Assembly (NCBI RefSeq): GCF_900217235.1
Contig: NZ_LT907975.1
Span: forward strand, 3,509,001-3,573,000
Reading direction: 5' to 3'
Length of the DNA: 64,000 nt
Origin: Pseudodesulfovibrio profundus
GTDB lineage: Bacteria > Desulfobacterota > Desulfovibrionia > Desulfovibrionales > Desulfovibrionaceae
Made by a program: the position numbers and the translations under genes. This document shows, one piece after another, positions 35,904 to 59,214 of this stretch (position 1 is its first letter; every line of letters starts with the position of its first letter). The notes below the pieces were generated by a model. It ran no database searches. It was not told the origin of the DNA and was given only the letters and a program-made list of their open reading frames with translations.

Positions 35904-35918
35904 ATGAGGAGATAAACA

Positions 35919-36221
35919 ATGGCTGTACCTGAGAGAATGATTATTTGTTGTCAGAGTTTTCGTGCCGCGGGCGACCCAAAAGGCATCTGCCACAAGCAGA
36001 CTGATGGATTCCTGCAGTACATCGAAGAAGAAATTCTCGACCGTGGCCTGGACGCGCTGGTCGTTGCCACCACATGCCTCAAGCAATGTGAATCCGGCCC
36101 GATCATGGTCGTTCAGCCCGACAACTGGTGGTTCAAGGGCGTGGATAGCGAAGAAGCCATCGACGAAATCCTTGATGCGCTGGAAGAGGGCGAACCCTGT
36201 GCCGACTACCTTGCTGCCTAG
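35919..36221 (+). CDS. Thioredoxin-like 2Fe-2S ferredoxin, nif-associated
   Basis: 100 residues. The four cluster ligands of the Shethna-type thioredoxin-like ferredoxin are likely among CCQSFRAAGDPKGIC and VVATTCLKQCESGPIMVVQPDNWWF, with the usual GVDSEEAIDEILDALEEG tail. It carries electrons, possibly to nitrogenase assembly or to NifH. It follows the NifB-like gene by 15 bases and precedes a GNAT gene, a set seen in nif clusters of related sulfate reducers as far as I recall. Confidence 0.82.
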   Translation: MAVPERMIICCQSFRAAGDPKGICHKQTDGFLQYIEEEILDRGLDALVVATTCLKQCESGPIMVVQPDNWWFKGVDSEEAIDEILDALEEGEPCADYLAA

Positions 36222-36234
36222 GTGAGAAATCCCC

Positions 36235-36690: not shown

Positions 36691-36727
36691 CAACGTATCA
36701 GGCCAATAACTCATTAGGGGAAGAACA

Positions 36728-39473: not shown

Positions 39474-39577
39474 GATACTTTGAAATAATATATCGTGTTT
39501 CGCAACAAGGCCTGCCGCAGAACGCCTTCAACGGCTTCGAGAGAGAGAGTGACAGGCGGCAACCACAGGAGAGAATC

Positions 39578-41581: not shown

Positions 41582-43663
41582 CTATGCTTTGGAAACGGTG
41601 ACGAAATGCTCCTGCATGGAGATGGCGCCGCCGCCCTTGTCATACTTGCGGATACCCTTGGGCATCAGTTCATTGTCTGCGGCTCCCTTGCCTATGGCGC
41701 GGGATTCGCACGGCAGGGTGTGACCGAAACCGTGGATCATGAAGACGCACTCGGGGTGGATGAAGTCGGTGACAAAGGCGCGGATCTTGGCCGAGTAACC
41801 GTTGTTGCCGACGCTGACGTATTCGTCGTTCTCAATGCCGAGGGCCTTGGCTCGATCGGTGTGAATCCAGAGCGTGTTCTCGGGCATGCGCTCGAACAGG
41901 AGCTTGTTATTGACCGTGTGGCCCTGTGTATGCAGGGCACAACGGCCAAAGGTGATGCGGAACTTGTCTTCCGGGGGGCGTTCGGGAGACTCGTAGGGCT
42001 TCAGCGAGGGAAGCCCGTCTTCTTCAAGCTTGGCATCGATAATCTGGATCTTTCCGGACGGTGTCTTGAAAGAGTTCTCGGTTACGGGCTTGTAGATGGG
42101 GGCGGAAGCGAGGCCGACTGCGCCGGTTTCTGCAAAGTCCTCGATAGTATATCCGGTGCCTTCCAACTGGAATTTCCAGATATCTTCGATGTTTTCATAT
42201 ACCAGATCATCCAGTCCGAACCGTTTGGCGAGGCCGGAATAAATCTCCCAGATCGCCTTGGTGTCGTAGAGAGGCTCGATGGCGCGCTTGCGCATGACAA
42301 AGGAAGGCTTGGGACCGTTCTTGGTCATGATGGTGTCGTCGCGCTCAAGGAACGGCGAGATGGGCAGAACCACGTCCGAGTACCACGCGGTGTCGGACCA
42401 GGAGAAGGTCACGGCAACGAGCAGGTCCAGATTGTCCCACATGGCCTTGACGTCTTTCATGTCCGGGAAAGCCATGAGAGGGTCGTGGCGCTGGGCAATG
42501 TACGCCTTGATCGGGTAGGGCTTGCCTTCGACGATGGCGTCGTAGGCGAGGTTCACCAGTCCGGGACCGGCATCGTAGTGCTTGCGGCCTTCCATCCAGC
42601 CGATGCCGTCGGCACGTTTGCCTTCGGGCTTCGGATAGAGATTCATGAACGATTGCAGTCCCTTTGCTCCGGCATCGCCCGGCTTGCCCATGAACGGCAG
42701 GCCACCCTTTGCGCCGATGGCGCCGAGCAGGGCATTGATCAGGTAGATAGTGCGGGACATGTAGAAAGAATCGGAGTAGCGGGCGGTCATCCAGCCGGGA
42801 TGCCAGATAACGCTCGGGGCGGCTTCGGCCAGTTGACGGCAGAAGTCGCGGATGGAATCGGCGGCAATGCCGGTTTCCTCTTCCGCCCATTCCGGGGGGT
42901 ACTGCTGGACAAAGACCTTGAGCGCGTCGAAACCGTCGAACCAGTTGGCGACATATTCCTTGTCGTAGAGCTCTTCATTAATAAGGACATGAAGGACTGC
43001 GAGGTTGAACGCGTAGTCTGTGCCGGGGCGGATGAGGAAGAAGTTGTCGGCCTTGGTTGCCGGAACGTTGGCGCGGATGTCGATGACGGTCAGCTTGGCG
43101 CCGTTTTCCATGCCCGAGAGCACGTTGTTCACTTCGGCCACGTTGATAGCTTCCATGACGTTGCGCTGCTGAAGGACAATGTGTTTACAGTTCTTGAAAT
43201 CGTAGGAGACACCCTTGCGTCCGAATCCGAATACGGAAAGGGCGGAGTTCTGGACGTTACGGGCGCAGGCAGAGTCGTGGTTGTTGTAGTTGGCGGTGCC
43301 TATGCCACGCAGGAACGCGCGATAGAAATCACGGAAGGGGCCGCCGCGGTCGGAGAAGAGGATGGCATCCTTGCCATATTCTTCCTGAACGGCTTTCAGC
43401 TTGTCGGCAACGTAATCAAGGGCTTCGTCCCAGGAGACCTTGCGCCATTTGCCTTCGCCTCGTTCGCCTGCACGAATCATGGGGTACTGCGGGCGCTCTT
43501 CATCATAGGTGAGAGCTGTTCCGGCAGCGCCACGAGGACACAGTGAGCCGTTCAGGGATTTACCGCCCTGAATATACTCGGCTTTCCCGTCTACTACTTC
43601 GACCTGAATGGGGCAGCGCACGGAGCACATGCCGCAGATGCTGTTCACATATTCCTTACTCAT
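41582..43663 (-). CDS. Molybdopterin oxidoreductase, PhsA/PsrA-like, without Tat signal
   Basis: 693 residues. N-terminal 4Fe-4S site CGMCSVRCPIQVEV...GSLCPRG; MGD-binding regions FSDRGGPFRDF, HPGWMTARYSDS, KPYPIKAYIAQRHDPLMAFPD, and the C-terminal dinucleotide domain GHTVNNKLLFERMPENTLWIH. The Mo ligand is probably the Cys in HDSACARNVQN. The protein starts MSKEYVNSICGMC with no twin-arginine leader, so unlike PhsA/PsrA it should be cytoplasmic. The divergent gene at 43938 encodes the matching iron-sulfur subunit, and a TauE/SafE-type transporter follows. A sulfur-compound or thiosulfate/sulfite-type substrate is plausible; not shown. Confidence 0.8.
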   Translation of the reverse strand: MSKEYVNSICGMCSVRCPIQVEVVDGKAEYIQGGKSLNGSLCPRGAAGTALTYDEERPQYPMIRAGERGEGKWRKVSWDEALDYVADKLKAVQEEYGKDAILFSDRGGPFRDFYRAFLRGIGTANYNNHDSACARNVQNSALSVFGFGRKGVSYDFKNCKHIVLQQRNVMEAINVAEVNNVLSGMENGAKLTVIDIRANVPATKADNFFLIRPGTDYAFNLAVLHVLINEELYDKEYVANWFDGFDALKVFVQQYPPEWAEEETGIAADSIRDFCRQLAEAAPSVIWHPGWMTARYSDSFYMSRTIYLINALLGAIGAKGGLPFMGKPGDAGAKGLQSFMNLYPKPEGKRADGIGWMEGRKHYDAGPGLVNLAYDAIVEGKPYPIKAYIAQRHDPLMAFPDMKDVKAMWDNLDLLVAVTFSWSDTAWYSDVVLPISPFLERDDTIMTKNGPKPSFVMRKRAIEPLYDTKAIWEIYSGLAKRFGLDDLVYENIEDIWKFQLEGTGYTIEDFAETGAVGLASAPIYKPVTENSFKTPSGKIQIIDAKLEEDGLPSLKPYESPERPPEDKFRITFGRCALHTQGHTVNNKLLFERMPENTLWIHTDRAKALGIENDEYVSVGNNGYSAKIRAFVTDFIHPECVFMIHGFGHTLPCESRAIGKGAADNELMPKGIRKYDKGGGAISMQEHFVTVSKA

Positions 43664-43761: not shown

Positions 43762-43779
43762 ATGTGAAATCCATCACAT
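43762..43779. promoter_or_regulatory. CRP/FNR-family binding site upstream of the molybdopterin gene
   Basis: ATGTGAAATCCATCACAT is a perfect palindromic arm pair of the TGTGA-N6-TCACA type, about 100 bases upstream of the minus-strand gene that starts at 43663. In Desulfovibrio such boxes are bound by HcpR- or CRP-like regulators. Confidence 0.7.
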
Positions 43780-43827: not shown

Positions 43828-43843
43828 TGAGAAATTCATCACA
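43828..43843. promoter_or_regulatory. Second CRP/FNR-type site upstream of the ferredoxin gene
   Basis: TGAGAAATTCATCACA differs from the 43762 site by one base in the arm (TGAGA for TGTGA) and has a nearly identical centre. It is about 95 bases before the ATG at 43938, so each divergent gene has one copy at similar distance. AATTTCTCA at 43800-43808 is its partial inverted echo. Confidence 0.55.
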
Positions 43844-43937: not shown

Positions 43938-44387
43938 ATGGCCACGTACAAAATCAAGTTTGACAAGAAACGGTGTATCGCCTGTGACGCCTGTCTCGTT
44001 CACTGCAAAGTGAAGAACAAGGTGCCAGCAGGAATCAGCCTGAACCGGCTTACCGCCGAAGGGCCCATTGCCGACAAGGACGGCAAGCCCACGGCCAAGC
44101 TCAAGTACCAGACCTGCCTGCACTGCAAGAAGCCCTTGTGTGTCCCGGCATGTCCCAATGAAGCCCTCTATAAAAGGGAAGATGGGCTGGTTTTGATCCA
44201 CATGGACAAGTGTGACGGTTGTCAATCCTGTATTGAAGCGTGTCCGTGGGATGTTCCTGTCTACAATGAAGCGACAGGTAAGATCATGAAGTGTGATTTT
44301 TGCGTGGACCGCGTGGATGCCGGGGGTATCCCGGCCTGCGTGACTGGCTGCACAGCCAATGCCCTTGAGTTCGTGCGGTCGGAATAA
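43938..44387 (+). CDS. Four-cluster 4Fe-4S ferredoxin subunit (DmsB/PhsB-like)
   Basis: 149 residues with sixteen cluster cysteines in four groups: CIACDACLVHCK, CLHCKKPLCVPAC, CDGCQSCIEACPW and CDFCVDRVDAGGIPACVTGC. This is the electron-transfer B subunit of DMSO-reductase-family enzymes. No signal peptide. It is divergent from the molybdopterin gene, an unusual arrangement for subunits of one enzyme, and shares the CRP-type boxes in between. No membrane C subunit is present, so the complex may be soluble. A terminator-like hairpin follows at 44398. Confidence 0.88.
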   Translation: MATYKIKFDKKRCIACDACLVHCKVKNKVPAGISLNRLTAEGPIADKDGKPTAKLKYQTCLHCKKPLCVPACPNEALYKREDGLVLIHMDKCDGCQSCIEACPWDVPVYNEATGKIMKCDFCVDRVDAGGIPACVTGCTANALEFVRSE

Positions 44388-44463: not shown

Positions 44464-45591
44464 GTGTTACGTTCCAAAAAAACTCTCCTGATGCTGGCTC
44501 TGGTGGCCGCGGTCTGCTTCACTGCAGAGCCCGCCTTCGCCGATCGTCTGGCCGAAGCCATCGCCGAAGCCAAACCGCAAGGTGAGCCCGGTTACCTCGG
44601 TATCCCCGGCGCTCCGCAACTCAACGTCATCATCGGTCTCGTGTGGGCGATCTGGGTAGGCTGGATCTTCTCCACCGTCGGCGCATTCGGTGGTATCATG
44701 GCCGGTGTTGGTCACATCACCATTTACGGCCTCGGTGACTACGCCAAGTCTTTCAAAAAAGACATGAAGCTGAACAAGGTCGTCACCGACTCCATCCGCG
44801 TGTCCAACCAGTGGCTCGTTGGTTGTTCCGCAGCACTGTCCTCCTTCAACTACTACAAAGCCGGTCGCCTCGTGCTGCCTCTGGGTATCGCTCTGGCCAT
44901 CGGTGCCGTTTCCGGTTCCTGGCTGGTACCCTGGTTGACCGCTGGTAAGATCTCCCTGAAGGCATACCTCGGTTACTTCGGTCTCTTCGTTCTCTTCCTC
45001 GGTTGCTACCTCTTCTACGAAACCACCCCCAAGGGCCAGGCCAACAAGAAGGCCGCCAAGAAAGCTGCTGAAGCTTTCCAGAAGTCCGTTAAGGAACAGC
45101 AGTCCGGTGGCCAGGTCGACATGAGCGAAATGGGCGTTAAGGTTCAGAAGTTCACCCCGACCGCTTGTGAGTTCACCTTCTTCGGTGTTGAATTCTCCTT
45201 CAACCCGGTTATCCCGGTTATCGGTGGTTTCTTCATCGCAGCTCTGGCTTCCTTCCTCGGTGTTGGCGGCGGCTTCCTGCTGGTGCCGTTCCTGACTTCC
45301 GTTGCCGGTCTGCCCATGTACCTCGTTGCCGGTACCTCCGCCATGGCCGTTCTGATCGGTATGGTCAACTCCATCGCTTCCTACATGCTGCTCAAGCAGA
45401 CTCCGGTTGCATGGGGCCTGATCGGTGCCGAGCTTATCGGTATCGTCATCGGTTCCGTCATCGGTCCCAAGACCTCCAAGTTCATCCCCGAGAAGGTTCT
45501 GAAGTACATCTTCATCTTCCTCGCCTTCTACGTTGGTATCCGCTACACCACCAAGGGCTTCCTGGGTTACTCCCTGGTACCCCCCTTCTAA
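44464..45591 (+). CDS. TauE/SafE (TSUP)-family anion transporter
   Basis: 375 residues from GTG 44464 with GAGGAGGAAAC upstream. A signal-like N-terminus (KKTLLMLALVAAVCFTAEPAFA) precedes two TSUP repeats: the first around VWAIWVGWIFSTVGAFGGIMAGVGHI, the second around GFFIAALASFLGVGGGFLLVPFLTS. A ~75-residue basic/soluble insert (KKAAKKAAEAFQKSVKEQQSG...) lies between the halves. The family exports or imports small sulfur or organosulfur anions such as sulfite or sulfoacetate. The next gene is 75 bases downstream with only a hairpin in between. Confidence 0.85.
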   Translation: MLRSKKTLLMLALVAAVCFTAEPAFADRLAEAIAEAKPQGEPGYLGIPGAPQLNVIIGLVWAIWVGWIFSTVGAFGGIMAGVGHITIYGLGDYAKSFKKDMKLNKVVTDSIRVSNQWLVGCSAALSSFNYYKAGRLVLPLGIALAIGAVSGSWLVPWLTAGKISLKAYLGYFGLFVLFLGCYLFYETTPKGQANKKAAKKAAEAFQKSVKEQQSGGQVDMSEMGVKVQKFTPTACEFTFFGVEFSFNPVIPVIGGFFIAALASFLGVGGGFLLVPFLTSVAGLPMYLVAGTSAMAVLIGMVNSIASYMLLKQTPVAWGLIGAELIGIVIGSVIGPKTSKFIPEKVLKYIFIFLAFYVGIRYTTKGFLGYSLVPPF

Positions 45592-45665: not shown

Positions 45666-46259
45666 ATGACCGGCCAAATGATTTACGAATTTCTCGATCC
45701 CTGGATGATATGGGCATTCCGCATGACGGAGAATCCCTACATCGGATTCGCCATAGGCATCTTCTGGATCTGTCTTCTTGCCACGGTCATCGGCGAGCTG
45801 TGCATGGCGGGCATCTACTTCCTTAATGCCAAGCACTTTGCGAAAATCAGCAAGGATATGGTTGGCCACCATAACCTCTCCGTCCAGGCGCTCGGCGCCA
45901 AGAACAAGGAAGCATGGAAGGCGTGCAACTCCATCGCCAACGATGCGTTCGGTAAAAATTTCTTCTCGCACATCGCATTATTCGCATCTTCGCTGTGGGT
46001 CGTTCCATTCGGTATCGGATGGTTGTTCTACCGCTTCGGTGATGTGGAATTCATTGTTCCCCTGATCGGCCAGGTCGGCCCGTCCTTTATCTTCATCCCG
46101 GCGTATATTTTTACCCGTTGGATGTTCGGCAAGGCCAAGCCGTGGCTGCCTCTCTTCCGCATGATCCGACAGAAGATCAAGGAGAATGAGGGAGAAGAGG
46201 AAATGATGATGTTCTCTGACATCATGAAAAAGAAGGAACCGGTTCCTGACAACTCCTAA
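45666..46259 (+). CDS. Membrane protein of unknown function next to the TauE/SafE gene
   Basis: 197 residues. Three hydrophobic segments: YIGFAIGIFWICLLATVIGELCMAGIYFL, IALFASSLWVVPFGIGWLFY, and VPLIGQVGPSFIFIPAYIF. The C-terminal tail is charged and cytoplasmic (RQKIKENEGEEEMMMFSDIMKKKEP). A conserved-looking soluble loop (KISKDMVGHHNLSVQALGAKNKEAWKACNSI) follows the first helix pair. I recognise no named family. The pairing with the TSUP transporter suggests a partner subunit; inferred only. Confidence 0.7.
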   Translation: MTGQMIYEFLDPWMIWAFRMTENPYIGFAIGIFWICLLATVIGELCMAGIYFLNAKHFAKISKDMVGHHNLSVQALGAKNKEAWKACNSIANDAFGKNFFSHIALFASSLWVVPFGIGWLFYRFGDVEFIVPLIGQVGPSFIFIPAYIFTRWMFGKAKPWLPLFRMIRQKIKENEGEEEMMMFSDIMKKKEPVPDNS

Positions 46260-46477: not shown

Positions 46478-46999
46478 TCAGGCCATCTGGCTCATGCCCG
46501 CGTTGACCGACTCGCTGAATCCTTCCATGTCGGAAGGGCCGAGCAGGTAGAAGCGTTCTTCGGTCTGGATGCAGATGACATCGGCGCGGTTGGCTACGAT
46601 CACTGCTTCCTGGTTGTTCTTGATCTCGATGATCCCGGAACGGTAACCGGCGAAGTGCATGAATTTTTTGGTTTTGACCGCGTGGAAGTCCTCATCGGTT
46701 ACCAGATTGACCGGCATGGTCTTGGTGACCGAGGCCCAGGGGATCACGGCACTGGCAAAAGGCGGAGCCGAGAGCAGGATGCCTTCATCGGCTACGGTGA
46801 TGGTCGCGCGCTTGGGCGTGATGTATAACATGTACCAGTAGAAAGCGGACAATGGTCCGGCTACGGCAATGAGACAGATGGCGGTCCAGGTGAGCCCGGA
46901 ATTGAAGCTCCAGGTCACAGTGGCGGCCACAGCCGCGACGCACAAAAGAAAGAACGTCAGGACTGTTTTATTCATGGGGACCTTGTATGATTTCGCCAC
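46478..46999 (-). CDS. Two-helix membrane protein with a bacterial PH-like domain
   Basis: 173 residues from GTG 46999, chosen because AAGGAGA lies seven bases before it; ATG 46975 is possible. Two membrane segments (VLTFFLLCVAAVAATVTW and ICLIAVAGPLSAFYWYMLYIT) are followed by a ~110-residue beta-rich cytoplasmic part (RATITVADEGILLSAPPFASAVIPWASVTKTM ... GIIEIKNNQEAVIVANRADVICI). That part resembles the bacterial pleckstrin-like (bPH) fold. Function unknown. It is divergent from the sensor operon at 47120. Confidence 0.65.
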   Translation of the reverse strand: MAKSYKVPMNKTVLTFFLLCVAAVAATVTWSFNSGLTWTAICLIAVAGPLSAFYWYMLYITPKRATITVADEGILLSAPPFASAVIPWASVTKTMPVNLVTDEDFHAVKTKKFMHFAGYRSGIIEIKNNQEAVIVANRADVICIQTEERFYLLGPSDMEGFSESVNAGMSQMA

Positions 47000-47119: not shown

Positions 47120-48100
47120 ATGATCAATCATGGAAAAATAAAACAACAGCGGGAAAAGCGCTCCGACCTCTGGCTCAAACATGGAGTCCGGGCGTTCGTT
47201 GTATTGGTGTGTCTCATCATAATCGGTGTGGTCGGCGGATGCGGCGAAGATGACCCCGTGGTACACGTGGATTTGACCAAACGGCAGAAGGTTCTTGCCC
47301 CGCGTCGACAGGAAGCGATCACCTACGCCTATTTACCGCAGTACTCGCACACGATTTCCTATCAACGGCACAGGGCGCTCCTTCAGTACCTGCGGGAAAC
47401 CACCAACCTGCCGTTACGACAAATATTTCCTGACACCTTTGATGAACATATCGCCATGGTCGAACGTGGCGAAATCGATATCTCGTTTTCCAACCCGTTT
47501 GTTTACATCCAGCTTGCCAAAGCTGGAGCCACCGCCTTTGCGCGTATCATCGAACCCGGTGGGGAGCCGTATTTTCAGGGACAAATCATCTGCCGCACTG
47601 ACAACCCGACCATTCAGACCATTTCCGATTGTGCCGGTAAACGGTGGATAGCCGTTGATCCCGGGTCTACAGGCGGCTACCTGTTCCCCCTTGGACTCTT
47701 CTTTGACAATGGCATTATGGTTAAGGATTTCAGGGAAGTGGACTTCGCACCCGGACCGGGTGGCAAGCAGGAGAAAGTCATTCTGGCCGTTCACGCCGGG
47801 GCCTATGACATCGGCACGATCCGCAAAGGGGCTTTGGACGTTATTTCGGGGAAAATCGACCCGTCCACCATTCGGGTTCTTGCCGAGACAAAGCAATACC
47901 CGGGCTGGGTCTACGCGGCCAGAAAAGGACTTGATCCTGATGTGGTCACTCGTATTGCAGCAGCCATGTTCGCGTTGGAAAATTCCCGCGAGGACCATGC
48001 AAGCATTCTGCGAAACGCAGGAATGCGTGGCATTATTCCGGCCAAAGACATTGATTACGAATCGGTTCGTCAACTGGCCAATAAGTTGGGGCTGGAATAA
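47120..48100 (+). CDS. Phosphate/phosphonate-type substrate-binding lipoprotein
   Basis: 326 residues from ATG 47120; the upstream frame to 47027 is not signal-like. A basic head and hydrophobic VRAFVVLVCLIIIGVVGGC end in a lipobox Cys. The PhnD-like type 2 periplasmic-binding fold follows: AITYAYLPQYSHTISYQRHRALLQYL, IDISFSNPFVYIQLAKAG, GKRWIAVDPGSTGGYLFPLGLFFDNGI, YDIGTIRKGALDVI. No ABC permease is nearby. The stop overlaps the start of the sensor-kinase gene (TAATGATG), so it is most likely the periplasmic ligand sensor for that kinase. Confidence 0.85.
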   Translation: MINHGKIKQQREKRSDLWLKHGVRAFVVLVCLIIIGVVGGCGEDDPVVHVDLTKRQKVLAPRRQEAITYAYLPQYSHTISYQRHRALLQYLRETTNLPLRQIFPDTFDEHIAMVERGEIDISFSNPFVYIQLAKAGATAFARIIEPGGEPYFQGQIICRTDNPTIQTISDCAGKRWIAVDPGSTGGYLFPLGLFFDNGIMVKDFREVDFAPGPGGKQEKVILAVHAGAYDIGTIRKGALDVISGKIDPSTIRVLAETKQYPGWVYAARKGLDPDVVTRIAAAMFALENSREDHASILRNAGMRGIIPAKDIDYESVRQLANKLGLE

Positions 48101-50223
48101 TGATGACCATGCGATTCCTCAATAAACTCAAGTTCCGCACCAAGCTGAATCTGGGAATTTACGGGCTCTTGATCATCATGGCGTTGCTGTTGTTGCCGCT
48201 GGTCGGCAGCACAACGACCAAAACACTGGTCGAAGAGAGTAAGAAGCGAGGATCATCCCTTGCCGAATCCATGGCCGCCCGTGCCGTTGACCCCTTGCTG
48301 GCAAAGGACTTTCTCCGACTGAAGAACATGGTCGACGAGCAGATTGCCGTGGGTGATGTGGTGTACGTTTTTGTGCAGGACAAGCTCGGCAACGTACTCA
48401 CGCATACGTTTCATCGGGGATTCCCAACCGATCTGATCCGGGCCAATACGGTCAGGGATGAGAACAAGGTTCATATCCAATTGTTGGCTGACGGGGTGGA
48501 GCGTATCTACGATTTCGCTTCGCCGGTGAAGATCGACGACAACCGGTTGGGTACCGTCCGAATCGGTCTTTCCAAAACCCGCATCGACGCCACGGTTAAT
48601 CGTCAGTTGACCACCATGGCCATGCTTGTTGCGGGCGTGCTTTTTGTCGCCACCATCCTCGGGTCCATTTTCGCTCAACAGGTGGCGAGCCGTCTGGCTG
48701 CCTTGCGCCTGCACGCCGAAGCCATGTTGATGGGTAACCTCGATTCCCATTCCGGCCCGCTGGACGGGGTGCATTGCTGGGAAAAACAGGACTGCGGGTT
48801 GAAGCAATGTCCTGCCTATGGGGAGCGGCAACGGCGGTGCTGGTATATCGCCGGAACCATGTGCCCGGACTGCGATGATGAAGACGTCCGCCGCGGCGTG
48901 CAGGATTCCTGTCAGAAGTGCCGTGTCTACCGTGAAGGGTCGGGCGATGAGTTGCAGGACCTTGCCGAGACCTTTGATGTCATGGCTTTGTCGCTGAAAA
49001 CACATATCGAGGAGCTTCGCGGTGCGGAGCGGAATCTGCGTGATCAGCAGCGGCTCATCCGAACCATTCTGGATGTTACCCCGGATCGCGTGTCGCTGGT
49101 CGATACCACCATGCGCTATCAGGGCGCCAACCGGAGCTTTGCCGAATTTGTCGGGCGGGAACTGCACGAAATCATTGGTAAGACCGACTTTGATTTGTTC
49201 CCTGAACATGTGGCCGAAGAGCGCCATTTCGCCTCCCGTGATATTCTGGAATCCGGCGAGCGACTCGACACCCAGATCATGATCAAGAACGACGAAGGGG
49301 AGCGTTGGTTCCATGTTGTCTGCATTCCTGTCTACGATGAAGACGGCAGCATCTCCGGCTTGTTGCGGACCGACCGCGATATCACGGATATCAAGGGATA
49401 CGAACGTCAGTTACTTCAGGCTCAGAAAATGGAATCCCTTGGATTGATGGTCGGTGGCGTGGCTCATGAGATCAACACGCCTCTTGGGATCATCCTTGGA
49501 TATTCCCAGTTGTTGCAGGAAGATGTGGAAGACGGAAGCCAAATCCATCAGGACCTCAAGATTATCGAAAAGCAGACGCAGGTCTGCAAGAAGATCGTTT
49601 CCGATCTGCTGGGTTTCTCCCGACAGACCCATTCCACCAAGCGGGAAATGTGCTTCAACAACTCGGTCATGGAAGCGGTTCAACTGGTTCGCCACACCTT
49701 CCAGCTTGACCGTGTGAAGATCGTGACCGAGCTCGATGATCGGTTCCCCATCATTTACGGTGACCCTGAAAAGCTCAAGCAGGTATGGATCAATCTGCTC
49801 AATAACAGCCGGGACGCCATGAATGGCCGCGGTGGCACCATTGTTATCCGAACCCTTCTGGACACGCCTGGAGGCATTGTCACCCTGTGGCTGGCCGACA
49901 ATGGCGAAGGAATTTCATCGGATCGACTCAAGATGATCTTCGATCCCTTCTATTCCACGAAGCCAGTGGGTGTTGGGACAGGCTTGGGGTTGTCCGTATC
50001 CTTTGGTATAATTGAAGACCATGACGGTCATATAAATGCAGAGAGTCCTGTGCCGAAAAATTTTGTTTTCCCTGAAAACAGTCAGGAAAATCAGGGGCCG
50101 GGGACCGTCTTTGAAGTCCGGCTGCCCCTGGACCACAGTGAAGATATCCCTACCAATGGTTCGGTTAAGGAACAGGAAGAAACATTTGATACGCCCCCGG
50201 CAGACGGGGCGGATATCCCATAA
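48100..50223 (+). CDS. Membrane sensor histidine kinase with an eight-cysteine module and PAS domain
   Basis: 707 residues. A membrane segment near residues 18-35 (LGIYGLLIIMALLLLPLVG) is followed by an extracytoplasmic domain to about 170 and a second segment (LVAGVLFVATILGSIF). After the HAMP start comes a cysteine block: C226W-x4-C-x4-C-x9-CW-x6-CxxC-x12-C271xxC274. This resembles the two-CW type and is probably metal- or cluster-binding. Then PAS (TILDVTPDRVSLVDTTMRYQGANRSF), HisKA with His456 (GGVAHEINTPLG) and a HATPase with NLLNNSRDAM, DNGEGIS and GTGLGLSVSFG. It should sense redox or metal state plus the ligand of the binding protein and phosphorylate the regulator at 50233. Confidence 0.92.
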   Translation: MMTMRFLNKLKFRTKLNLGIYGLLIIMALLLLPLVGSTTTKTLVEESKKRGSSLAESMAARAVDPLLAKDFLRLKNMVDEQIAVGDVVYVFVQDKLGNVLTHTFHRGFPTDLIRANTVRDENKVHIQLLADGVERIYDFASPVKIDDNRLGTVRIGLSKTRIDATVNRQLTTMAMLVAGVLFVATILGSIFAQQVASRLAALRLHAEAMLMGNLDSHSGPLDGVHCWEKQDCGLKQCPAYGERQRRCWYIAGTMCPDCDDEDVRRGVQDSCQKCRVYREGSGDELQDLAETFDVMALSLKTHIEELRGAERNLRDQQRLIRTILDVTPDRVSLVDTTMRYQGANRSFAEFVGRELHEIIGKTDFDLFPEHVAEERHFASRDILESGERLDTQIMIKNDEGERWFHVVCIPVYDEDGSISGLLRTDRDITDIKGYERQLLQAQKMESLGLMVGGVAHEINTPLGIILGYSQLLQEDVEDGSQIHQDLKIIEKQTQVCKKIVSDLLGFSRQTHSTKREMCFNNSVMEAVQLVRHTFQLDRVKIVTELDDRFPIIYGDPEKLKQVWINLLNNSRDAMNGRGGTIVIRTLLDTPGGIVTLWLADNGEGISSDRLKMIFDPFYSTKPVGVGTGLGLSVSFGIIEDHDGHINAESPVPKNFVFPENSQENQGPGTVFEVRLPLDHSEDIPTNGSVKEQEETFDTPPADGADIP

Positions 50224-50232
50224 GGAGGAGGC

Positions 50233-50592
50233 ATGGCCAATATAATCGTAGTAGACGATATCTCCGATGCAGGCATGCTGGTAAAACGTATTCTTGAACG
50301 AAAAGGCCACTCTGTTTCGGCGTTCACGGAAGAGGAGGACGCCCTCAAGCACGCCGCTTCAAAGCCGGTGGATCTGGCCATTCTCGACATCAAGCTGAAA
50401 AAGATGACAGGCGTGGAAGTACTGGAAGAACTGAAAAAGAACAGCCCGGACATCAAGGCCATCATGCTCACAGGCTACCCCACGCTGGAGACCGCCCGCG
50501 AGTCCTTGCGTCTGGGAGCGCAGGAGTATTGCGTCAAGCCCATTAACAAGGAAGAACTCGAAGCCAAGGTCGCTGAGGTTCTCGGAGATTAA
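50233..50592 (+). CDS. Single-domain response regulator
   Basis: 119 residues, receiver only: acidic pocket VVDD at residues 7-9, phospho-acceptor Asp52 in LAILDIKLKK, Thr in MLTGYPT and Lys in YCVKPINK. No output domain, so it must act through a protein partner; the next gene product or the phosphatase are candidates. GGAGGAGG-type site precedes its ATG. The gap from the kinase gene is nine bases and the next gene is four bases away. Confidence 0.92.
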   Translation: MANIIVVDDISDAGMLVKRILERKGHSVSAFTEEEDALKHAASKPVDLAILDIKLKKMTGVEVLEELKKNSPDIKAIMLTGYPTLETARESLRLGAQEYCVKPINKEELEAKVAEVLGD

Positions 50593-50595
50593 CGC

Positions 50596-53058
50596 ATGCA
50601 GTTAACGCAGCTTTTCAAGCACTGGTCTTATCAGGTTTTCGCACCCGGCACCTTGTTGCGTCGAAAGTACGAGGCATTCAAGTCGCTGCTCAAGCACGAC
50701 GCCATCGCCCTTGAGCTTATCGCCGATCTTGAAGAGCTGTTTTATGGGGAGGTGCTGGCGGATCGACAACGGGCTAACCATCTTGCTGCCAAGCTCTCCG
50801 AGGCCGTGAGTATCATGGCCGGACAGTTGGTGGAGATGAATCCCACCGCGTACATGGATTTGCAGGAGTACTTCCGCAAGATCGATTTCTATGTCCGAAT
50901 GTCGCTGGAGCTTGAACAGCCTGAAGTCGGGCCGCCATATATCCTTTCTTTGGAAGATGCGGGGGCGTTCCCGCAACTGGCCGGAGGCAAGGCTTCCAAC
51001 CTCGGTCGTGCTTCAAAGGTGGAAGGCATGCCCGTACCCAAAGGGTTTGTGGTGACAGCCAATGCGTACAATTATTTCATCGATTACAACGGATTGAATG
51101 ACGGTATCGAGGAGTGCCTGCGACAGATGGTCGTGGGCGACCGCGACCTGTTGGCCCGACTGACACTGGAGGTGCAGGAGATGATCCTGGCCGGAGAGGT
51201 ACCCGAAGAGATCGCCCGTGGCATCCGCTTCGGTGTCTCCGAAATCATTTCCGGCGATGACCTGATCGCGGTTCGATCCAGTGCGTTGGCCGAAGATGGC
51301 GAGATTTCCTTTGCCGGTCAGTATGCCAGTGAACTCAACGTGCCCCCCAACGATGTCCTTGAAGCGTACAAGCGTGTTCTGGCGGGCAAGTATTGCCCCC
51401 GCGCCATTGCGTATCGAATTTCCAACGGCTTGACTGATCGCGACACGGCCATGGCAACACTGGTGCTGCCCATGGTCGATGCGGAGAATGCCGGTGTGGT
51501 TTACTCCAAGGACCCGGATTGTCGCGGTGGCAACACCATTGGCGTGTATGGTGTGCGTGGCCTTGGCGAGCATCTGGTGGACGGGTCGGTTTCTCCCGGC
51601 AAGGCGAACCTGAGCCGCGGTGAGAATCCGGCGCTTTCCCCGGAGTGCACCCCGGATACCAACGGCCTGCCCGGAGAAGAAACGCTGGTTCGTCTTGGTC
51701 GTCTGGCCATGCGTCTGGAAGAGGAGTTCGGCAAACCGCAGGATATCGAGTGGGCCGAGGATGTCACCGGCGAGCTGTATATTTTGCAGACCAGGCCACT
51801 TCAGGCTGAACGAGAAGAGGCTGAGACCACCTATGAGCCGCTGGAAGTCAAGCCCATGCAGGATGGTCTTGAACGAGCCTCCACCGGCGTAGGTTGCGGT
51901 GAAGTCTACTTTGCTCCCACCGGTGAATCCATTGCCCGGATACCCGAGGGAGCCGTTGTCGTCACCCCGTCCCTGAAACCCTCTTTACTGACATTCATTT
52001 CCAAAATGAGCGCGGTGATCTCGACCACCGGCAGTCGGGCAAGCCACTTTGCATCAGTGGCCCGCGAGACCGGTGTGCCGGTTCTGGTCGGCCAACTGGA
52101 TCAGGAGCTTGAAGCCGGACAGGTGGTGACTGTCGATGGAACCGGCGGTGCCATCTACGATGGCTGTGTCGAGGCGATTCTGACCCGTGCCCGGGGCGAG
52201 AAATTCATTCCACAGCGGGTCATCAAGCAATACGAGAAGGTCGTTCCCTATACGGTCAAACTCAATCTCACTGATCCCGAGGGTGATAATTTCAATCCCG
52301 AGGGGTGCCGCTCGCTGCATGATGTCGTGCGTTTTTGCCACGAGAAGGCTGTGGGCGAGATGTTCTCCATCGTCGATAAGCGTGGGCGTGGCATGTACGC
52401 AGCCAAACGGCTCAAGACCGATCTGCCGCTGGTCATGTACCTGCTCGATCTGGGCAAGGGGCTGTTCGACGGGTGTGAAAAGAACAAGCTGGTTTCGCCG
52501 CAGGATATCAAAAGTCGTCCCATGTGGGCGCTCTGGTACGGTTTGGCGGATTCGCGGGTCAAGTGGCCCGAGAAGCTGACCCACATGGACTGGGAGACCT
52601 TTGACAAGATGGCAGGCGGCATCTTCAGCTTTGATTCCAAGCTGCTGGCAAGCTACGGGCTGATCTCCGAGGACTACCTCCACCTGATGATCCGGTTCGG
52701 CTACCACTTCTCGGTGGTTGATACCATCTGCGGGCCGGATGCCGGTCGTAACTATATCAATTTCCGTTTCAAGGGTGGCGGGGCCGGTTTTGATCAGCGC
52801 CTGCTGCGTTTGCAGTTCATCCGCAAGGTTCTGGATGAGTATGGCTTTGAAACTGGTACACGGGGCGACATGATCGATGCGAAGGTCGCCAGAATAGACG
52901 AGAACACCACACGCAGACTGTTGGCCCGACTTGGTTACCTGATGGCTGTGACGCGACTCATGGACATGAGCATGCAGAACGAGGAACAGGTGGATCAGGA
53001 AGTGCAACGGTTCATGGACGCAGCGGAGCACAAAGATGTTCGGTTGGAAAAAGACTAA
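50596..53058 (+). CDS. PEP-synthase-like enzyme lacking the usual C-terminal barrel
   Basis: 820 residues. 1-112: helical region of no known type. About 113-400: pyruvate/PEP-dikinase ATP-grasp domain (AGAFPQLAGGKASNLGRASKVEGMPVPKGFVV, IAVRSSALAEDGEISFAGQYAS, DIEWAEDVTGELYILQTRPL). About 425-510: swivelling phosphohistidine domain with His484 in TGSRASHFASVARETGVPVLVG. The last ~300 residues are not the PEP-binding TIM barrel of PpsA/PPDK but an unassigned domain (HDVVRFCHEKAVGEMFSIVDKRGRG...). It probably phosphorylates something other than pyruvate. It sits in the sensor operon with a downstream phosphatase overlapping by 23 bases. Confidence 0.85.
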   Translation: MQLTQLFKHWSYQVFAPGTLLRRKYEAFKSLLKHDAIALELIADLEELFYGEVLADRQRANHLAAKLSEAVSIMAGQLVEMNPTAYMDLQEYFRKIDFYVRMSLELEQPEVGPPYILSLEDAGAFPQLAGGKASNLGRASKVEGMPVPKGFVVTANAYNYFIDYNGLNDGIEECLRQMVVGDRDLLARLTLEVQEMILAGEVPEEIARGIRFGVSEIISGDDLIAVRSSALAEDGEISFAGQYASELNVPPNDVLEAYKRVLAGKYCPRAIAYRISNGLTDRDTAMATLVLPMVDAENAGVVYSKDPDCRGGNTIGVYGVRGLGEHLVDGSVSPGKANLSRGENPALSPECTPDTNGLPGEETLVRLGRLAMRLEEEFGKPQDIEWAEDVTGELYILQTRPLQAEREEAETTYEPLEVKPMQDGLERASTGVGCGEVYFAPTGESIARIPEGAVVVTPSLKPSLLTFISKMSAVISTTGSRASHFASVARETGVPVLVGQLDQELEAGQVVTVDGTGGAIYDGCVEAILTRARGEKFIPQRVIKQYEKVVPYTVKLNLTDPEGDNFNPEGCRSLHDVVRFCHEKAVGEMFSIVDKRGRGMYAAKRLKTDLPLVMYLLDLGKGLFDGCEKNKLVSPQDIKSRPMWALWYGLADSRVKWPEKLTHMDWETFDKMAGGIFSFDSKLLASYGLISEDYLHLMIRFGYHFSVVDTICGPDAGRNYINFRFKGGGAGFDQRLLRLQFIRKVLDEYGFETGTRGDMIDAKVARIDENTTRRLLARLGYLMAVTRLMDMSMQNEEQVDQEVQRFMDAAEHKDVRLEKD

Positions 53059-54121
53059 AAAGAGTACGCCCTACCAGGTGACCTGGGTGACCGAGCAGCT
53101 TGGCGTTGGGCATGCCCCAATGAGCCATCCGCAGCTCGATGCCATCCGGGCTGAAGGGGTGGATGCCATCCTCAATCTCTGCGGTGAGTTTTGTGATCTG
53201 CATGAGATTGAAGAGGATGCCGGTTTTGAAGTCCACTATCTCCCCTTGGAGGATGAAGAAGCGCCCGGACTCATCGAGCTGGAGAAAGCCCTCGAATGGC
53301 TGGACGAAGCCATTTATCTGGGAAAGAAAGTGCTCATCCACTGTCGGCACGGCATCGGTCGGACCGGCACCGTGCTCAATGCCTACCTGCTGCGTCGCGG
53401 ATTGGGCCACAAACTTGCAGGCAAGGCCCTGAAAAAACTGAAAAGCAAACCGGCCAACTTCGTGCAGTGGCGCACAGTGCGAAAGTACGGCAAGAAATCC
53501 GGCATGCTCAGTGTTCGTGAGCCTTCGCTGGAGTTCAAGCGGCTGGTGGACCTTGCCCCGTTTTTCAATGATTATTGCGAACTGGTGGAACGACTGGAGG
53601 AACAGGTCGGTTCCAAGCGTCAGGGGTTGGCCTGCGGATTGGACAACGCCTCCTGCTGTACCACGCCGGTCCGTTTGACACTGGTCGAGGCTGTCCACAT
53701 CAGTCATCGCATCAATACCGAACTCTCCTGCAAAAACAGACTGGCCCTGATCGAGCGGGCCGTGGAAACGGCGCAGGCTGAACGCCGTACGGCCTCGGCC
53801 ATGCAGACCAATGCCGAAGGGGACGAGTTCTGTCTGTCCGAAGCCGGGGCCGTTTGTCCGCTGCTGGAAGAAGGGCAGTGTTTGCTCTTTGACCATCGCC
53901 CCCTCCAGTGCCGCGCCTTTGCGCAGGACCATTCTCAGGATGGGGACCTGTGGGAGCGGTTGCTCACGCCTGCTCTGTCCAAGATTTCTGCCGAAATATG
54001 GTTTGCCTACACCGGCTCCATGGCCGATGACATGCCGGTCTTCCCCCTGCCTGATGTGGTTTCCGGAAAATTCATGGAAACCATTTTCAAAATGATGATG
54101 CAGCAGGGCCTGGATTCCTGA
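53036..54121 (+). CDS. Dual-specificity phosphatase fused to a YkgJ-type cysteine domain
   Basis: 361 residues; start ATG 53036 overlaps the end of the preceding gene by 23 bases. N-terminal half: dual-specificity/protein-tyrosine phosphatase with HCRHGIGRTG (nucleophile Cys103, Arg109) and the general-acid loop around YLPLEDEEAPG. C-terminal half from about residue 200: cysteine pattern CGLDNASCC, then CLSEAGAVCPLLEEGQCLLFDHRPLQCRAF, as in the YkgJ (CxxCxxCC, zinc/iron-chelating) family. The fusion joins phosphate removal with a metal-binding module and fits the metal/redox theme of the kinase in the same operon. Confidence 0.88.
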   Translation: MFGWKKTKKSTPYQVTWVTEQLGVGHAPMSHPQLDAIRAEGVDAILNLCGEFCDLHEIEEDAGFEVHYLPLEDEEAPGLIELEKALEWLDEAIYLGKKVLIHCRHGIGRTGTVLNAYLLRRGLGHKLAGKALKKLKSKPANFVQWRTVRKYGKKSGMLSVREPSLEFKRLVDLAPFFNDYCELVERLEEQVGSKRQGLACGLDNASCCTTPVRLTLVEAVHISHRINTELSCKNRLALIERAVETAQAERRTASAMQTNAEGDEFCLSEAGAVCPLLEEGQCLLFDHRPLQCRAFAQDHSQDGDLWERLLTPALSKISAEIWFAYTGSMADDMPVFPLPDVVSGKFMETIFKMMMQQGLDS

Positions 54122-54420: not shown

Positions 54421-54840
54421 ATGAAAAAAGCGAAGCTTATCAACTCGGGCATATCCTACATTGTTTCCACCATGGGCCATGGTGACGGGATCACTGTTTG
54501 CGATGCGGGTCTGCCGATTCCAGGCTCGACACAGCGAATTGATCTGGCAGTGACTCGTGGCATCCCCTCGTTCATGGAAACGGTCAAGGCCATTGCTTCG
54601 GAGCTGGAAATCGAAGGCGTTGAAATGGCCGAGGAGTTCAAGGAGAAAAGCCCTGAACTGCATCGGGAGCTGCTTGTCTTTCTGGAAACGATCGCTGACG
54701 AACGAGGCAAGCCAGTGTTGATTTCCTATATCCCCCATGAAGAATTCAAGGCCAACACCGAGAAATCCCTGGCCGTTGTGCGCACCGGCGAGTGCACGCC
54801 TTTTGCCAATGTGACCCTCAAGTCCGGCGTTGTCTTTTAG
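54421..54840 (+). CDS. rbsD: D-ribose pyranase RbsD
   Basis: 139 residues, RbsD/FucU length. Begins [24 protein letters not shown] (catalytic His of the family) and has the [22 protein letters not shown] block. It interconverts the pyranose and furanose forms of ribose so RbsK can act. First gene of the operon, ten bases before rbsA. Confidence 0.93.
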
Positions 54841-54850
54841 GAGACCTGTC

Positions 54851-56356
54851 ATGGAGGAACTGCTCAGGCTTGACGGCATTGAAAAGTCCTTTCCGGGCGT
54901 CAAGGCGCTTGATCGCGTCAATCTTCGGGTCGAGGCTGGGCGCGTCATGGCACTTGTCGGGGAGAATGGCGCGGGGAAATCGACCCTCATGAAAGTGCTG
55001 ACCGGCATCTACCAACGTGACGCCGGAACCATCACCTACCTCGGTAAGGAACGACAGTTCGCTGGCCCTCGTGATTCCCAGCAGGCTGGTATCTCCATCA
55101 TCCATCAGGAGCTGAATCTGCTCCCGGAACTCTCCATAGCGGAAAACATCTTCCTTGGTCGCGAACCATCAGGATTCGCGGGCCGTATCCATTGGAAAGC
55201 AATGTACAAGCAGGCGGATGCGCTTCTGGCTCGGCTCGGTGTTTCCCGCTCATCACGCACACGCCTGGGCGATCTGTCCATCGGTGAGCAGCAGATGGTG
55301 GAAATCGCCAAGGCGCTCTCTTTCGAGAGTCGGGTCATCATCATGGATGAACCCACCGACACCCTGACCGATACCGAAACCGAGGCGCTGCATGGCGTTA
55401 TCAGGGAGTTGCGGGATTCGGGACGTGGCATCGTGTACATTTCGCATCGGCTCAAGGAAATATTTGAAATCTGCGACGACGTAACCGTACTGCGTGACGG
55501 CAATTTCATCGGAGAAGCGCCGGTTGCCGATATGGATGAGGAAGCGTTGATCGAGATGATGGTCGGACGCCGACTGGAGGAGCAGTACCCGCGAGTCGAG
55601 GTCACTCCCGGCCGATTCAGCCTGGAGGTCACCGATCTGGTCGGGCCGCGTCTGGATTCGGTTTCCATGGCCGTGCGCGAAGGCGAGATTCTCGGTGTGT
55701 CCGGGCTGATGGGCGCTGGGCGGACCGAATTGATGAAGGCCGTGTTCGGCGCACATCCCATTGAATCCGGCTCGGTTTCCATGTTTGGCGAGCCGGTTCG
55801 CATCCGGTCGCCCAAGGATGCCCTTGAAGCCGGGATTGCCTACATCAGCGAAGATCGCAAGCGGGATGGTCTGATTCTCGGCATGTCGGTGCAAAAGAAC
55901 ATGACTTTGGCTGCACTGAAAATGTTCTCCACTCCCACCGGTCATCTTCGGGCGGCCATGGAGTGTGAAGCTGCATCCGGCTATGTGGCGGCGTTCAATA
56001 TTCGTACTCCCTCCCTACGGCAGCAGGTCGGCAATCTTTCGGGCGGCAATCAGCAGAAGGTCGCCATTGCCAAGGGGCTTATGGATCGCCCGCGTGTGCT
56101 GATCCTAGATGAACCGACCCGCGGGGTGGATGTGGGGGCCAAAAAGGAAATCTATCAGCTCATCAATCGCTTCAAGAGCGAGGGCATGAGCATCATTCTC
56201 GTCTCTTCGGAAATGCCGGAAATTCTGGGCATGAGCGATCGCATAATCGTTATGCACGAAGGGCGTGTACGCGGTGAATTCACGGCCGGAGAGGCCGATC
56301 AGGAAACACTCATGGCCTGTGCTATCGGCAGGGCGCAGGAGGAGGCTCGGGCATGA
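54851..56356 (+). CDS. rbsA: Ribose ABC transporter ATPase RbsA
   Basis: 501 residues from ATG 54851, the family length; the frame extends to 54830 over rbsD. Two ABC domains: first with Walker [10 protein letters not shown], signature DLSIGEQQM and Walker B IIMDEPT; second with a degenerate Walker A region around [11 protein letters not shown], signature LSGGNQQK and [17 protein letters not shown]. Energises ribose uptake with RbsC and RbsB. The stop overlaps rbsC (ATGA). Confidence 0.95.
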
Positions 56357-57324
56357 GCGCAGACAAGGCAGATATGGGGAAGCAGCGTGTCTCCCTCAAG
56401 CAGCGGTTGATTCAGCAGAAAACCCTCATCGCCCTCGTGGTGATGATCATCGTGGTTTCCTTTCTCAACCCCAATTTCTTCACCACAGGCAATATCCTCA
56501 ATATTTTGCGGCAGACGGCCATCAACGCCATCATGGCCGTGGGCATGACCATGGTCATCCTCACCGCCGGAATCGACCTCTCGGTCGGTTCGGTGCTGGC
56601 CCTGTGCGGCGCCATCGGAGCCAGTCTTATCGCGGCGGAGATGCCGGTTGTGGTGGCCGTGGGCGCGGCCCTTGGTGCCGGAGCCCTGCTTGGTGCCGCT
56701 TCGGGCGTGGTCATAGCAAAGGGCAAGGTGCAGGCGTTCATCGCCACCCTTGTCTCAATGACTTTGGTACGTGGCCTGACGCTCGTCTATACGGATGGTC
56801 GTCCCATCTCCACCGGCTTCACCGATGTGGCGGATGCGTTTTCGTTCATCGGCACAGGCTACGTGCTCGGTGTGCCGGTTCCCATCTGGATCATGGCAAT
56901 CACCTTTGGCGGGGCGTGGTACCTGCTCAATCACACTCGCCTCGGGCGCTACATTTATGCCCTTGGTGGCAATGAGGAAGCGTCCAAACTTTCCGGTATC
57001 AATGTCGACTCGATCAAGATCACGGTCTACGCCATAGCCGGTTTTCTGTCCGCACTATCGGGCCTGATCGTCACCTCGCGCCTGTCTTCGGCCCAGCCAA
57101 CGGCAGGGTATGGATACGAGCTGGATGCCATTGCCGCGGTCGTGCTTGGCGGCACGTCGCTCATGGGAGGCAAGGGAACCATCATGGGAACCCTGCTTGG
57201 CGCACTTATTATTGGATTTTTGAATAATGCACTGAATTTGCTTGATGTATCTTCCTATTATCAGATGATAGCGAAAGCGCTGGTCATTCTGTTAGCGGTC
57301 CTGGTGGATACGAAGAGCAAGTAG
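56353..57324 (+). CDS. rbsC: Ribose ABC transporter permease RbsC
   Basis: 323 residues with about ten membrane segments, BPD_transp_2 type: [68 protein letters not shown] (the EAA-like coupling loop), and [22 protein letters not shown]. Overlaps rbsA at its start. Confidence 0.95.
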
Positions 57325-57345
57325 ATACAACGCAAGGAGTATAGG

Positions 57346-58221
57346 ATGAAAAAACTCATGACTCTCGCCATGGCATTGGTCCTGTCTCTGGCGCTGGGCG
57401 TATCCGCCCATGCCAAGGACACCATCGCACTGGTCGTATCCACCCTGAACAACCCCTTCTTCGTCACCCTCAAGGACGGTGCCGTACAGAAGGCGGAAGA
57501 GATGGGATACGACATCATCGTGCTGGATTCCCAAAACGACCCGTCCAAAGAGTTGGCCAACGTGGAAGACCTCACGGTGCGTGGCGTCAAGGCCATTCTC
57601 ATCAACCCCACTGATTCGGATGCCGTTTCCAACGCCATTCGCCTGATCAATGGCGCGAACATCCCGGTTCTGACTCTGGATCGTGGCGCAACTCGCGGCA
57701 AGGTCGCTTCCCACATCGCTTCCGACAACGTTGCCGGTGGCAAGATGGCTGGTGACTTCATGGCGGAAAAGCTTGGCAAGAACGCCAAGGTCATCCAGCT
57801 TGAAGGTCTGGCCGGTACTTCCGCTGCCCGCGATCGCGGTGCCGGATTCGCCAAGGCTGTCGAGGCCAACGGCTTCAACGTGCTGGCTTCCCAGCCTGCC
57901 GACTTCGACCGCACCAAGGGCTTGAACGTCATGGAAAACCTGCTCGCCAATCACGGTGATGTGCAGGGCGTCTTCGCTCAGAACGACGAAATGGCTCTGG
58001 GTGCGCTTCGTGCATTGCAGGCAGCCGGTAAAGATGTCGTGGTTGTCGGTTTCGACGGCACCGATGACGGTGTTGCTGCTGTAAAACGTGGCGAAATGGC
58101 CGGTACCATTGCCCAGCAGCCCGCTCTGATCGGTGCCCTCGGCGTGGAAACCGCCGACAAGGTGCTCAAGGGCGAAAAGGTGAACGAGTACATTCCGGTT
58201 CCCCTGATGGTCGTAAAGTAA
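57346..58221 (+). CDS. rbsB: Ribose-binding protein RbsB
   Basis: 291 residues. Signal peptide [23 protein letters not shown]. Type 1 periplasmic-binding fold: [88 protein letters not shown]. It captures ribose for RbsAC. A terminator (58235) follows but rbsK continues the operon after it. Confidence 0.96.
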
Positions 58222-58234
58222 CACGTGTATCAAG

Positions 58235-58264
58235 GACGCACCGGCGTGTTTCGGTGCGTCTTTT
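58235..58264 (+). terminator. Internal terminator between rbsB and rbsK
   Basis: GACGCACCG (58235-58243), loop, CGGTGCGTC (58252-58260), TTTTCC. It would lower rbsK/rbsR message relative to the transporter genes. Confidence 0.85.
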
Positions 58265-58285
58265 CCTCTTTCCCCGGAGAATCTC

Positions 58286-59209: not shown

Positions 59210-59214
59210 CGATC

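Follow-up and report, generated by a model that had tools for sequence, protein, structure and literature searches.

A nitrate-cluster-type locus of Pseudodesulfovibrio profundus with an XSR-like sensor front end and a possible phosphotransferase/phosphatase output

Introduction

AioX, ArrX and ArxX form, together with their kinases and regulators, the XSR clusters that are linked to molybdoenzymes (PMC5908839). Among sensors of sulfur oxyanions, TtrS likely binds tetrathionate via a PhnD-like domain, and the thiosulfate sensor ThsS came out of the same search (PMC5408782, in its accessible text). In Desulfovibrio, a 'nitrate cluster' (DVU0251–DVU0245/Dde_0597–Dde_0605) was reported in 2014, in which disruption of most genes leads to nitrate resistance; the accessible text of that report, on which all statements about it below are based, leaves the native role of the cluster open (PMC4001038). 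Here, we compare with these systems a row of five genes—for a binding lipoprotein, a sensor kinase, a lone receiver, a phosphoenolpyruvate (PEP)-synthase-like protein and a phosphatase—from 64,000 nucleotides of Pseudodesulfovibrio profundus (GCF_900217235.1, contig NZ_LT907975.1, positions 3,509,001–3,573,000, forward strand; 'the window' denotes this whole stretch). We read the row, with a probability of roughly 0.45, as a three-component oxyanion sensor with an AioX/ArrX-like front end, whose non-transcriptional phosphotransferase/phosphatase output would serve the uptake or use of sulfur oxyanions.

The question has a practical side: nitrate is dosed into oil reservoirs against souring, and loss of the nitrate cluster is a published route of sulfate reducers to nitrate resistance (PMC4001038). 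For this poorly annotated cluster, the comparison gives a testable order of events and adds a PhsA-like molybdoenzyme, a ferredoxin and conserved HcpR/Rex-type sites. It also draws attention to a large family of phosphotransferases, so far without a name, whose members repeatedly adjoin lone receivers.

Comparison with described systems

Domains of the window proteins were called by Pfam and NCBIfam scans, and the row consists of the following genes:

47120..48100, + strand: PhnD/PtxB-type periplasmic binding lipoprotein, the X component (PF12974, E 2.5e-57)
48100..50223, + strand: membrane sensor histidine kinase with two transmembrane helices, sCache_3_2, an eight-cysteine (two-CW-like) block, PAS, HisKA and HATPase_c
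50233..50592, + strand: lone receiver of 119 amino acids (aa), without output domain (PF00072, E 9.9e-26)
50596..53058, + strand: PEP-synthase-like protein (PPDK_N and PEP-utilizers matches)
53036..54121, + strand: dual-specificity-type phosphatase with a YkgJ-type cysteine tail (DSPc match)

All five open reading frames (ORFs) are open and lie on the + strand. The row had been proposed from the nucleotide letters and their ORFs in an earlier note, here called the original prediction, and is confirmed by the ORFs, by the domain matches and by an order that is kept in most orthologue loci (see below). The proposed packing by overlaps of a few bases holds for two of the four borders, which are, in order, a 1-base overlap, a 9-base gap, a 3-base gap and a 23-base overlap. 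The five genes are part of a bigger unit than the five-gene operon first envisaged: TauE and a 197-aa protein lie upstream, and then a PhsA-like molybdoenzyme with a ferredoxin.

The trio of lipoprotein, kinase and receiver resembles the XSR sensors described for other oxyanions. As in AioXSR, ArrXSR and ArxXSR (PMC5908839), a PhnD-type binding protein is encoded beside a sensor kinase and a regulator, with an enzyme of the dimethyl sulfoxide (DMSO)-reductase family adjacent; the regulator here, however, is a lone 119-aa receiver without a DNA-binding domain, and the next genes encode a phosphotransferase and a phosphatase. ThsSR and TtrSR share the PhnD-like sensing of sulfur oxyanions, and ttrSR adjoins tetrathionate reductase, but their PhnD-like domain is located within the kinase and their regulator binds DNA (PMC5408782). 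The sensor front end is a known one, but a lone receiver replaces the DNA-binding regulator and a phosphotransferase comes after it, which is a new variation on XSR-like systems.

For the nitrate cluster, Table 3 of PMC4001038 gives the same gene content and order as the window ORFs: TauE, hypothetical protein, PtxB-like protein, kinase, receiver, a protein like pyruvate phosphate dikinase (PPDK) and dual-specificity phosphatase, with a receiver gene of 360 bp in both. The original prediction knew of no described system with this set; such a system is in print, mutant phenotypes included, and the claim to novelty shrinks because of these phenotypes. Differences concern the PPDK-like gene (listed with 2235 bp for D. 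vulgaris and 2463 bp long in the window), Dde_0597 (DUF169)—without evident counterpart by TauE here, where the ferredoxin gene sits, no dedicated search having been made—and the molybdoenzyme and ferredoxin, which do not appear in the published gene list (PMC4001038). Desulfovibrio sp. A2 (L100) carries a syntenic set.

Conservation and co-occurrence

The PEP-synthase-like protein was searched in 60 genomes, including its own, and 30 loci with likely orthologues were chosen by hand, one per genome. The five genes stand in order in 27 of these 30 loci; the exceptions are L067, which is rearranged and has a second, partial enzyme match, L072, with dissimilar neighbours only, and L073, without them. 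In a second set, built from the best 80 of 218 relatives of the protein in named records with neighbours called by profile search, the order is found at 32 of the 80 loci and at 26 of the 48 that are well flanked (at least 4.5 kb upstream and at least 1.5 kb downstream). Scored wherever they are located in these 48 loci, the phosphatase is present in 42, the receiver in 40, the kinase in 30, the binding protein in 28, TauE in 26, the 197-aa protein in 25 and the molybdoenzyme in 20. The named loci belong chiefly to sulfate reducers—Desulfovibrio and relatives, Desulfobacterales, Desulfobulbaceae and others—and include two metagenome-assembled genomes of Nitrospiraceae (L121, L140).

Across 198 genomes of the phylum, with score thresholds chosen within this analysis, the receiver family and the phosphatase were each found in 19 genomes, 16 of which have both (hypergeometric p 6e-18; 5e-17 once the own genome is left out; both values overstate the association, the genomes being related and ancestry uncorrected). 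The binding lipoprotein occurs in nine of these genomes, seven of which hold receiver and phosphatase. Per genome, at most 22 receiver and 5 enzyme candidates were scored, and at most 10 and 11 in two other family searches, which possibly overcounts absences. The set of five genes is widely conserved.

The PEP-synthase-like enzyme and the phosphatase

The enzyme comprises a helical N-terminus (residues ~1–110), an ATP-grasp domain (PPDK_N, 128–411), a phosphohistidine domain (449–518, with H484) and a C-terminal domain (~540–820). Its ATP-grasp and histidine residues align with those of PEP synthases, and K132, R227, D383, E385, Q398, R400 and H484—which we take to be the catalytic positions—are conserved in 90% or more of 107 sequences, a set in which, as in those of 63 and 94 sequences used below, some genomes are represented twice. 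The usual C-terminal PEP/pyruvate TIM barrel appears to be missing, as the original prediction had noticed: residues 509–820 match no Pfam family at all, and the predicted secondary structure of the C-terminal part is not an alternating barrel. The C-terminal 280 residues have their own invariant set, H575, D576, R579, H582, E583, H704, D709 and G727–G729 (41 of 41 sequences). NCBIfam returns a single match for this domain, far under its cut-off, and no PDB chain matches it at E 0.001 or better. Models of the enzyme are of fair confidence, with a mean predicted local distance difference test score of 84 for the full length and 82 for the C-terminal part.

The enzyme resembles the superfamily of PEP synthase, pyruvate phosphate dikinase and rifampin phosphotransferase in its ATP-grasp and swivelling phosphohistidine domains with their catalytic residues, but differs in having no TIM-barrel match and in its own helical N-terminus and C-terminal domain. 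An assignment as PEP synthase was rejected, since no pyruvate/PEP barrel is matched and a conserved C-terminal domain of its own is found instead. Because the catalytic residues are kept, no barrel is matched and the C-terminal domain is without an above-threshold family or fold match, the protein is most likely a dikinase-type phosphotransferase. Counting cluster-type genes in, relatives of the enzyme at E 1e-100 or better occur in 77 of the 198 phylum genomes. Two paralogues (L044 and L045) bear an extra C-terminal part, their C-terminal 200 residues, which in L045 weakly resembles lectin/LamG-type domains.

The phosphatase carries the active site HCRHGIGRT, an HCX5R motif whose H102, C103 and R109 are conserved in 94 sequences (H102 and C103 at 1.00). 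Its tail cysteines C200, C207, C208, C274, C282 and C292 are kept in 0.90–0.97 of these sequences, and the tail scores 19.8 bits against the CxxCxxCC/YkgJ Pfam family, below the cut-off of 23. The phosphatase gene is the most constant companion of the enzyme gene: among the 80 named loci, 68 have it at most 500 bases away, and in one (L146) the two genes are fused.

With no acceptor known, and a C-terminal domain that has neither an above-threshold family match nor a clear fold, the enzyme could be imagined to be catalytically idle and to bind nucleotide and partner proteins as a scaffold or sensor, the substrate of the phosphatase being unrelated. We regard this as highly improbable: conservation of the seven residues at the level given above would be unusual for a dead enzyme, and the two invariant active-site residues of the phosphatase argue against it as well.

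The larger gene unit and its regulatory sites

Upstream of the sensor genes, the window contains the following features:

41582..43663, − strand: divergent molybdopterin oxidoreductase, PhsA-like (NCBIfam and solved-structure matches)
43763..43778, strandless: perfect TGTGA-N6-TCACA site between the divergent units
43828..43843, strandless: one-mismatch copy of this site, 65 bases beyond the first
43938..44387, + strand: 4Fe-4S ferredoxin-like protein (DmsB/TtrB-like), immediately 5' of TauE
44464..45591, + strand: TauE/SafE-type permease, upstream part of the unit (PF01925, E 1.8e-24)
45666..46259, + strand: 197-aa membrane protein with about three hydrophobic segments, of no family, accompanying TauE

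In 20 of the 30 orthologue loci, the fetched sequence includes both TauE and the 197-aa gene, and the ferredoxin-like gene is matched 5' of TauE in 12 of the 14 loci L035–L042 and L055–L060. For the molybdoenzyme, PhsA is the best-scoring NCBIfam family, at 507 bits and under its equivalog cut-off of 694; among solved structures, the top match is 2vpw, whose deposited name is thiosulfate reductase. No export signal was seen by eye in this protein, which begins straight at its Fe4S4 motif. Longer, distant relatives of the molybdoenzyme occur in L202 (14881–17727) and L205 (9554–12349), the former with an N-terminal nitrate-reductase-delta (chaperone-type) domain fused.

The 450 bases by the molybdoenzyme start were scanned for the site in the window and in the 14 loci named above, which were picked for the same divergent layout. 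A TGTGA-N6-TCACA site with at most one mismatch occurs in 15 of 15 regions and is perfect in 11, and two sites lie exactly 65 bases apart in 10; as background, the full 14 loci (234 kb) contain 30 such sites, 23 of them in the scanned regions. This sequence is a binding site of HcpR1, which Rex is said to share (PMC5701242, in its accessible text); loss of Rex is published to confer nitrate resistance, too. The predicted HcpR/Rex-type sites, hence, fit in kind what is published on Rex and nitrate sensitivity.

The lone receiver and its partner

The phosphosite D52 of the receiver is invariant, at a mean column identity of 75% (17 sequences). Its control of the phosphohistidine enzyme, as first proposed, finds support in neighbourhood and co-occurrence, and paralogues of the enzyme behave alike. 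Of 38 loci with enzyme relatives, one of which (L162) turned out to hold a cluster-type gene, 24 have a lone receiver at a distance of up to 3 kb and 15 at one of up to 200 bases, and the density of lone receivers near the paralogues is 0.159 per kb vs 0.038 in the outer flanks, about four times higher. The enzyme paralogue in the own genome (L053 1875–7482) is preceded by a kinase and three lone receivers. TauE-like genes, called from matches of 20–49 bits to an in-house profile and confirmed by Pfam in six of the six cases cross-checked, lie within 3 kb of the paralogue in 12 of the 38 loci (0.053 vs 0.021 per kb). This general pairing of the enzyme family with lone receivers is the strongest new support for a receiver acting on the enzyme, as association and not as contact.

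Some loci suggest another partner. The receiver gene stands directly upstream of the molybdoenzyme gene in seven of the 80 named loci (L108, L117, L127, L130, L144, L147 and L148) and also in L193, and in L195 (2303–4915, − strand) a receiver is fused to a PhsA-like molybdoenzyme in one frame of 871 aa, with a further receiver gene just upstream. Hence, the enzyme is not necessarily the partner of the receiver, and the molybdoenzyme is a rival for this role. The enzyme might then be a metabolic one that phosphorylates a small molecule in the pathway of the imported anion, its receiver serving a different, possibly unlinked partner or the molybdoenzyme—co-regulation rather than a signalling chain. 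Such a role would suit L082, L084 and L087, where the enzyme gene directly follows TauE and the 197-aa gene and the other four cluster-type genes are not in the fetched stretch, as well as the lack of receiver–enzyme fusions among ORFs with an enzyme match (0 of 127 and 0 of 52). Superfamily relatives with swapped acceptor domains, such as rifampin phosphotransferase and HpeI, act on small molecules.

Against a purely metabolic enzyme, paralogues recur by lone receivers in other neighbourhoods, and the constant partner of the enzyme is a protein-type phosphatase. Eight enzyme loci were, moreover, traced to seven genomes, each with an enzyme locus that lacks a nearby receiver; six of these genomes have the receiver elsewhere and all seven the phosphatase. 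Of the eight loci, L144 itself carries a receiver and belongs to the same genome as L087; for four of the genomes, the locus had already revealed the phosphatase. The sole genome of these without a receiver is that of Desulfosarcina alkanivorans (L151). On this evidence, we consider the metabolic role a serious but doubtful alternative.

The sensing front end and its ligand

All 19 aligned relatives share the lipobox cysteine C41 of the lipoprotein. Among solved structures, HtxB and PtxB are closest, followed by ArrX, PhnD and AioX (the latter at E 7.8e-5). The cysteine block of the kinase (C226, C232, C237, C247, C255, C258, C271 and C274) matches the NCBIfam two-CW domain NF045718 at 26.2 bits, below the cut-off of 35. 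In 63 aligned sequences, H456 and six of the eight cysteines are at 1.00, C255 at 0.87 and C258 at 0.71. Through this block, the kinase might integrate metal or redox state, as the original prediction proposed. In Salidesulfovibrio brasiliensis (L089 7587–9588), the cluster kinase gene is broken over three frames. The resemblance to XSR sensors and the oxyanion- and phosphonate-type solved relatives support a lipoprotein that would sense a ligand, as originally proposed.

This ligand might be phosphite or a phosphonate, an arsenic oxyanion or nitrate, with TauE carrying something else. The ranking of the solved binding proteins is consistent with this choice, and nitrate is behind the only strong published phenotype (PMC4001038). 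A sulfur oxyanion is favoured by the molybdoenzyme with its PhsA and 2vpw matches and by a mild thiosulfate defect of G20 mutants (PMC4001038); also, none of the window ORFs next to the binding protein is an ABC permease gene. A ligand other than a sulfur oxyanion, therefore, appears unlikely to us.

Published phenotypes

Fitness in nitrate is listed in Table 3 of PMC4001038. The values for G20 are 3.01 (TauE-like), 2.88 (hypothetical), 3.51 (PtxB-like), 2.34 (kinase), 3.08 (receiver), 3.41 (PPDK-like) and 2.08 (phosphatase); those for D. vulgaris are, in the same order, 11.44, −5.82, 3.86, 1.43, 9.14, 2.18 and −6.04. Both strains, thus, gain fitness when the gene for the permease, the binding protein, the receiver or the enzyme carries an insertion. 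Once isolated, D. vulgaris mutants in DVU0246, 0247, 0250 and 0251 grow equally with and without 100 mM nitrate, and the DVU0245 mutant is inhibited (PMC4001038).

The authors hypothesize that nitrate enters via a leaky thiosulfate transporter and cite as unpublished a mild thiosulfate sickness of G20 mutants (PMC4001038). A 2021 paper repeats the term 'putative thiosulfate transporters' in its accessible text (PMC9723548), DVU0251 is mentioned in PMC3431258, and the main text of a 2023 paper on a D. vulgaris mutant library has no mention of DVU024x/025x. Two other papers in which the term 'nitrate cluster' came up deal with the clustering of communities. In open-access main texts on the cluster, its locus tags, dikinase plus receiver and later work, no mechanism past the leaky-transporter hypothesis was found.

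Proposed mechanism

For the ligand, the acceptor, the target and each step of signal flow, we infer the following scheme. The lipoprotein would bind a periplasmic oxyanion—likeliest a sulfur oxyanion, e.g., thiosulfate—and act on the sensor kinase, which would phosphorylate the 119-aa receiver. The receiver would switch the PEP-synthase-like enzyme, which would charge its own H484 from ATP and pass the phosphate on to an acceptor held by its C-terminal domain, and the phosphatase would take off the phosphate thus delivered. The output might serve uptake by TauE and the 197-aa membrane protein, and the imported anion might be used by the PhsA-like molybdoenzyme and the ferredoxin. Nitrate would be harmful because it leaks in while the pathway is on. 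The mechanism of the original prediction is plausible and now has more support.

Several points weigh against this sensor reading, in addition to the receivers beside molybdoenzyme genes and the missing fusions. The receiver occurs without the phosphatase in three phylum genomes, the phosphatase without the receiver in three and the lipoprotein without the receiver in two; TauE is not in the fetched stretch of 10 of the 30 orthologue loci, and in 14 of the 38 paralogue loci the 3 kb around the enzyme gene contain no lone receiver. Data on binding, phosphotransfer or interaction were not found. The equivalence to the nitrate cluster is one of content, order and gene sizes, not of sequence comparison with the DVU/Dde genes, and the HcpR/Rex-type sites do not explain the direction in which Rex acts on nitrate sensitivity. 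Published genetics are in conflict on a phosphatase that reverses the product of the enzyme: the DVU0245 mutant is still nitrate-sensitive, and insertions in the G20 homologue gain fitness. Furthermore, depletion of the DVU0250 mutant in the pool contrasts with its resistance once isolated, and in D. vulgaris the kinase gene carries a pseudogene annotation (PMC4001038).

More broadly, receivers in sulfate reducers and relatives might drive a whole family of PEP-synthase-derived phosphotransferases with a new acceptor domain; in this branch, the gating of a TauE-type anion permease might fall to enzyme and phosphatase, acting as a reversible protein kinase/phosphatase switch. This is a tentative extension, conceivable though leaning to the improbable. 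If true, this would be a type of signalling output without description in the literature found, and it would account for the nitrate sensitivity of sulfate reducers.

Flanking genes

Between the TauE unit and the sensor genes, the window encodes a small bPH_5 (bacterial PH-domain) protein (46478–46975, − strand), which is matched at the same place in L035–L042 and L055–L060 (14 loci) and not in other loci of the same genus, e.g., L063–L066. Just before the molybdoenzyme, at 28377–40846, nitrogenase-related genes are found: two Oxidored_nitro proteins, a radical-SAM/FeMo-co protein and a homocitrate-synthase-like protein (HMGL, HCS_D2). Past the phosphatase gene, at 54421–60216, RbsD-type, ABC ATPase and permease-like ORFs and a LacI-type regulator resemble a ribose uptake unit.

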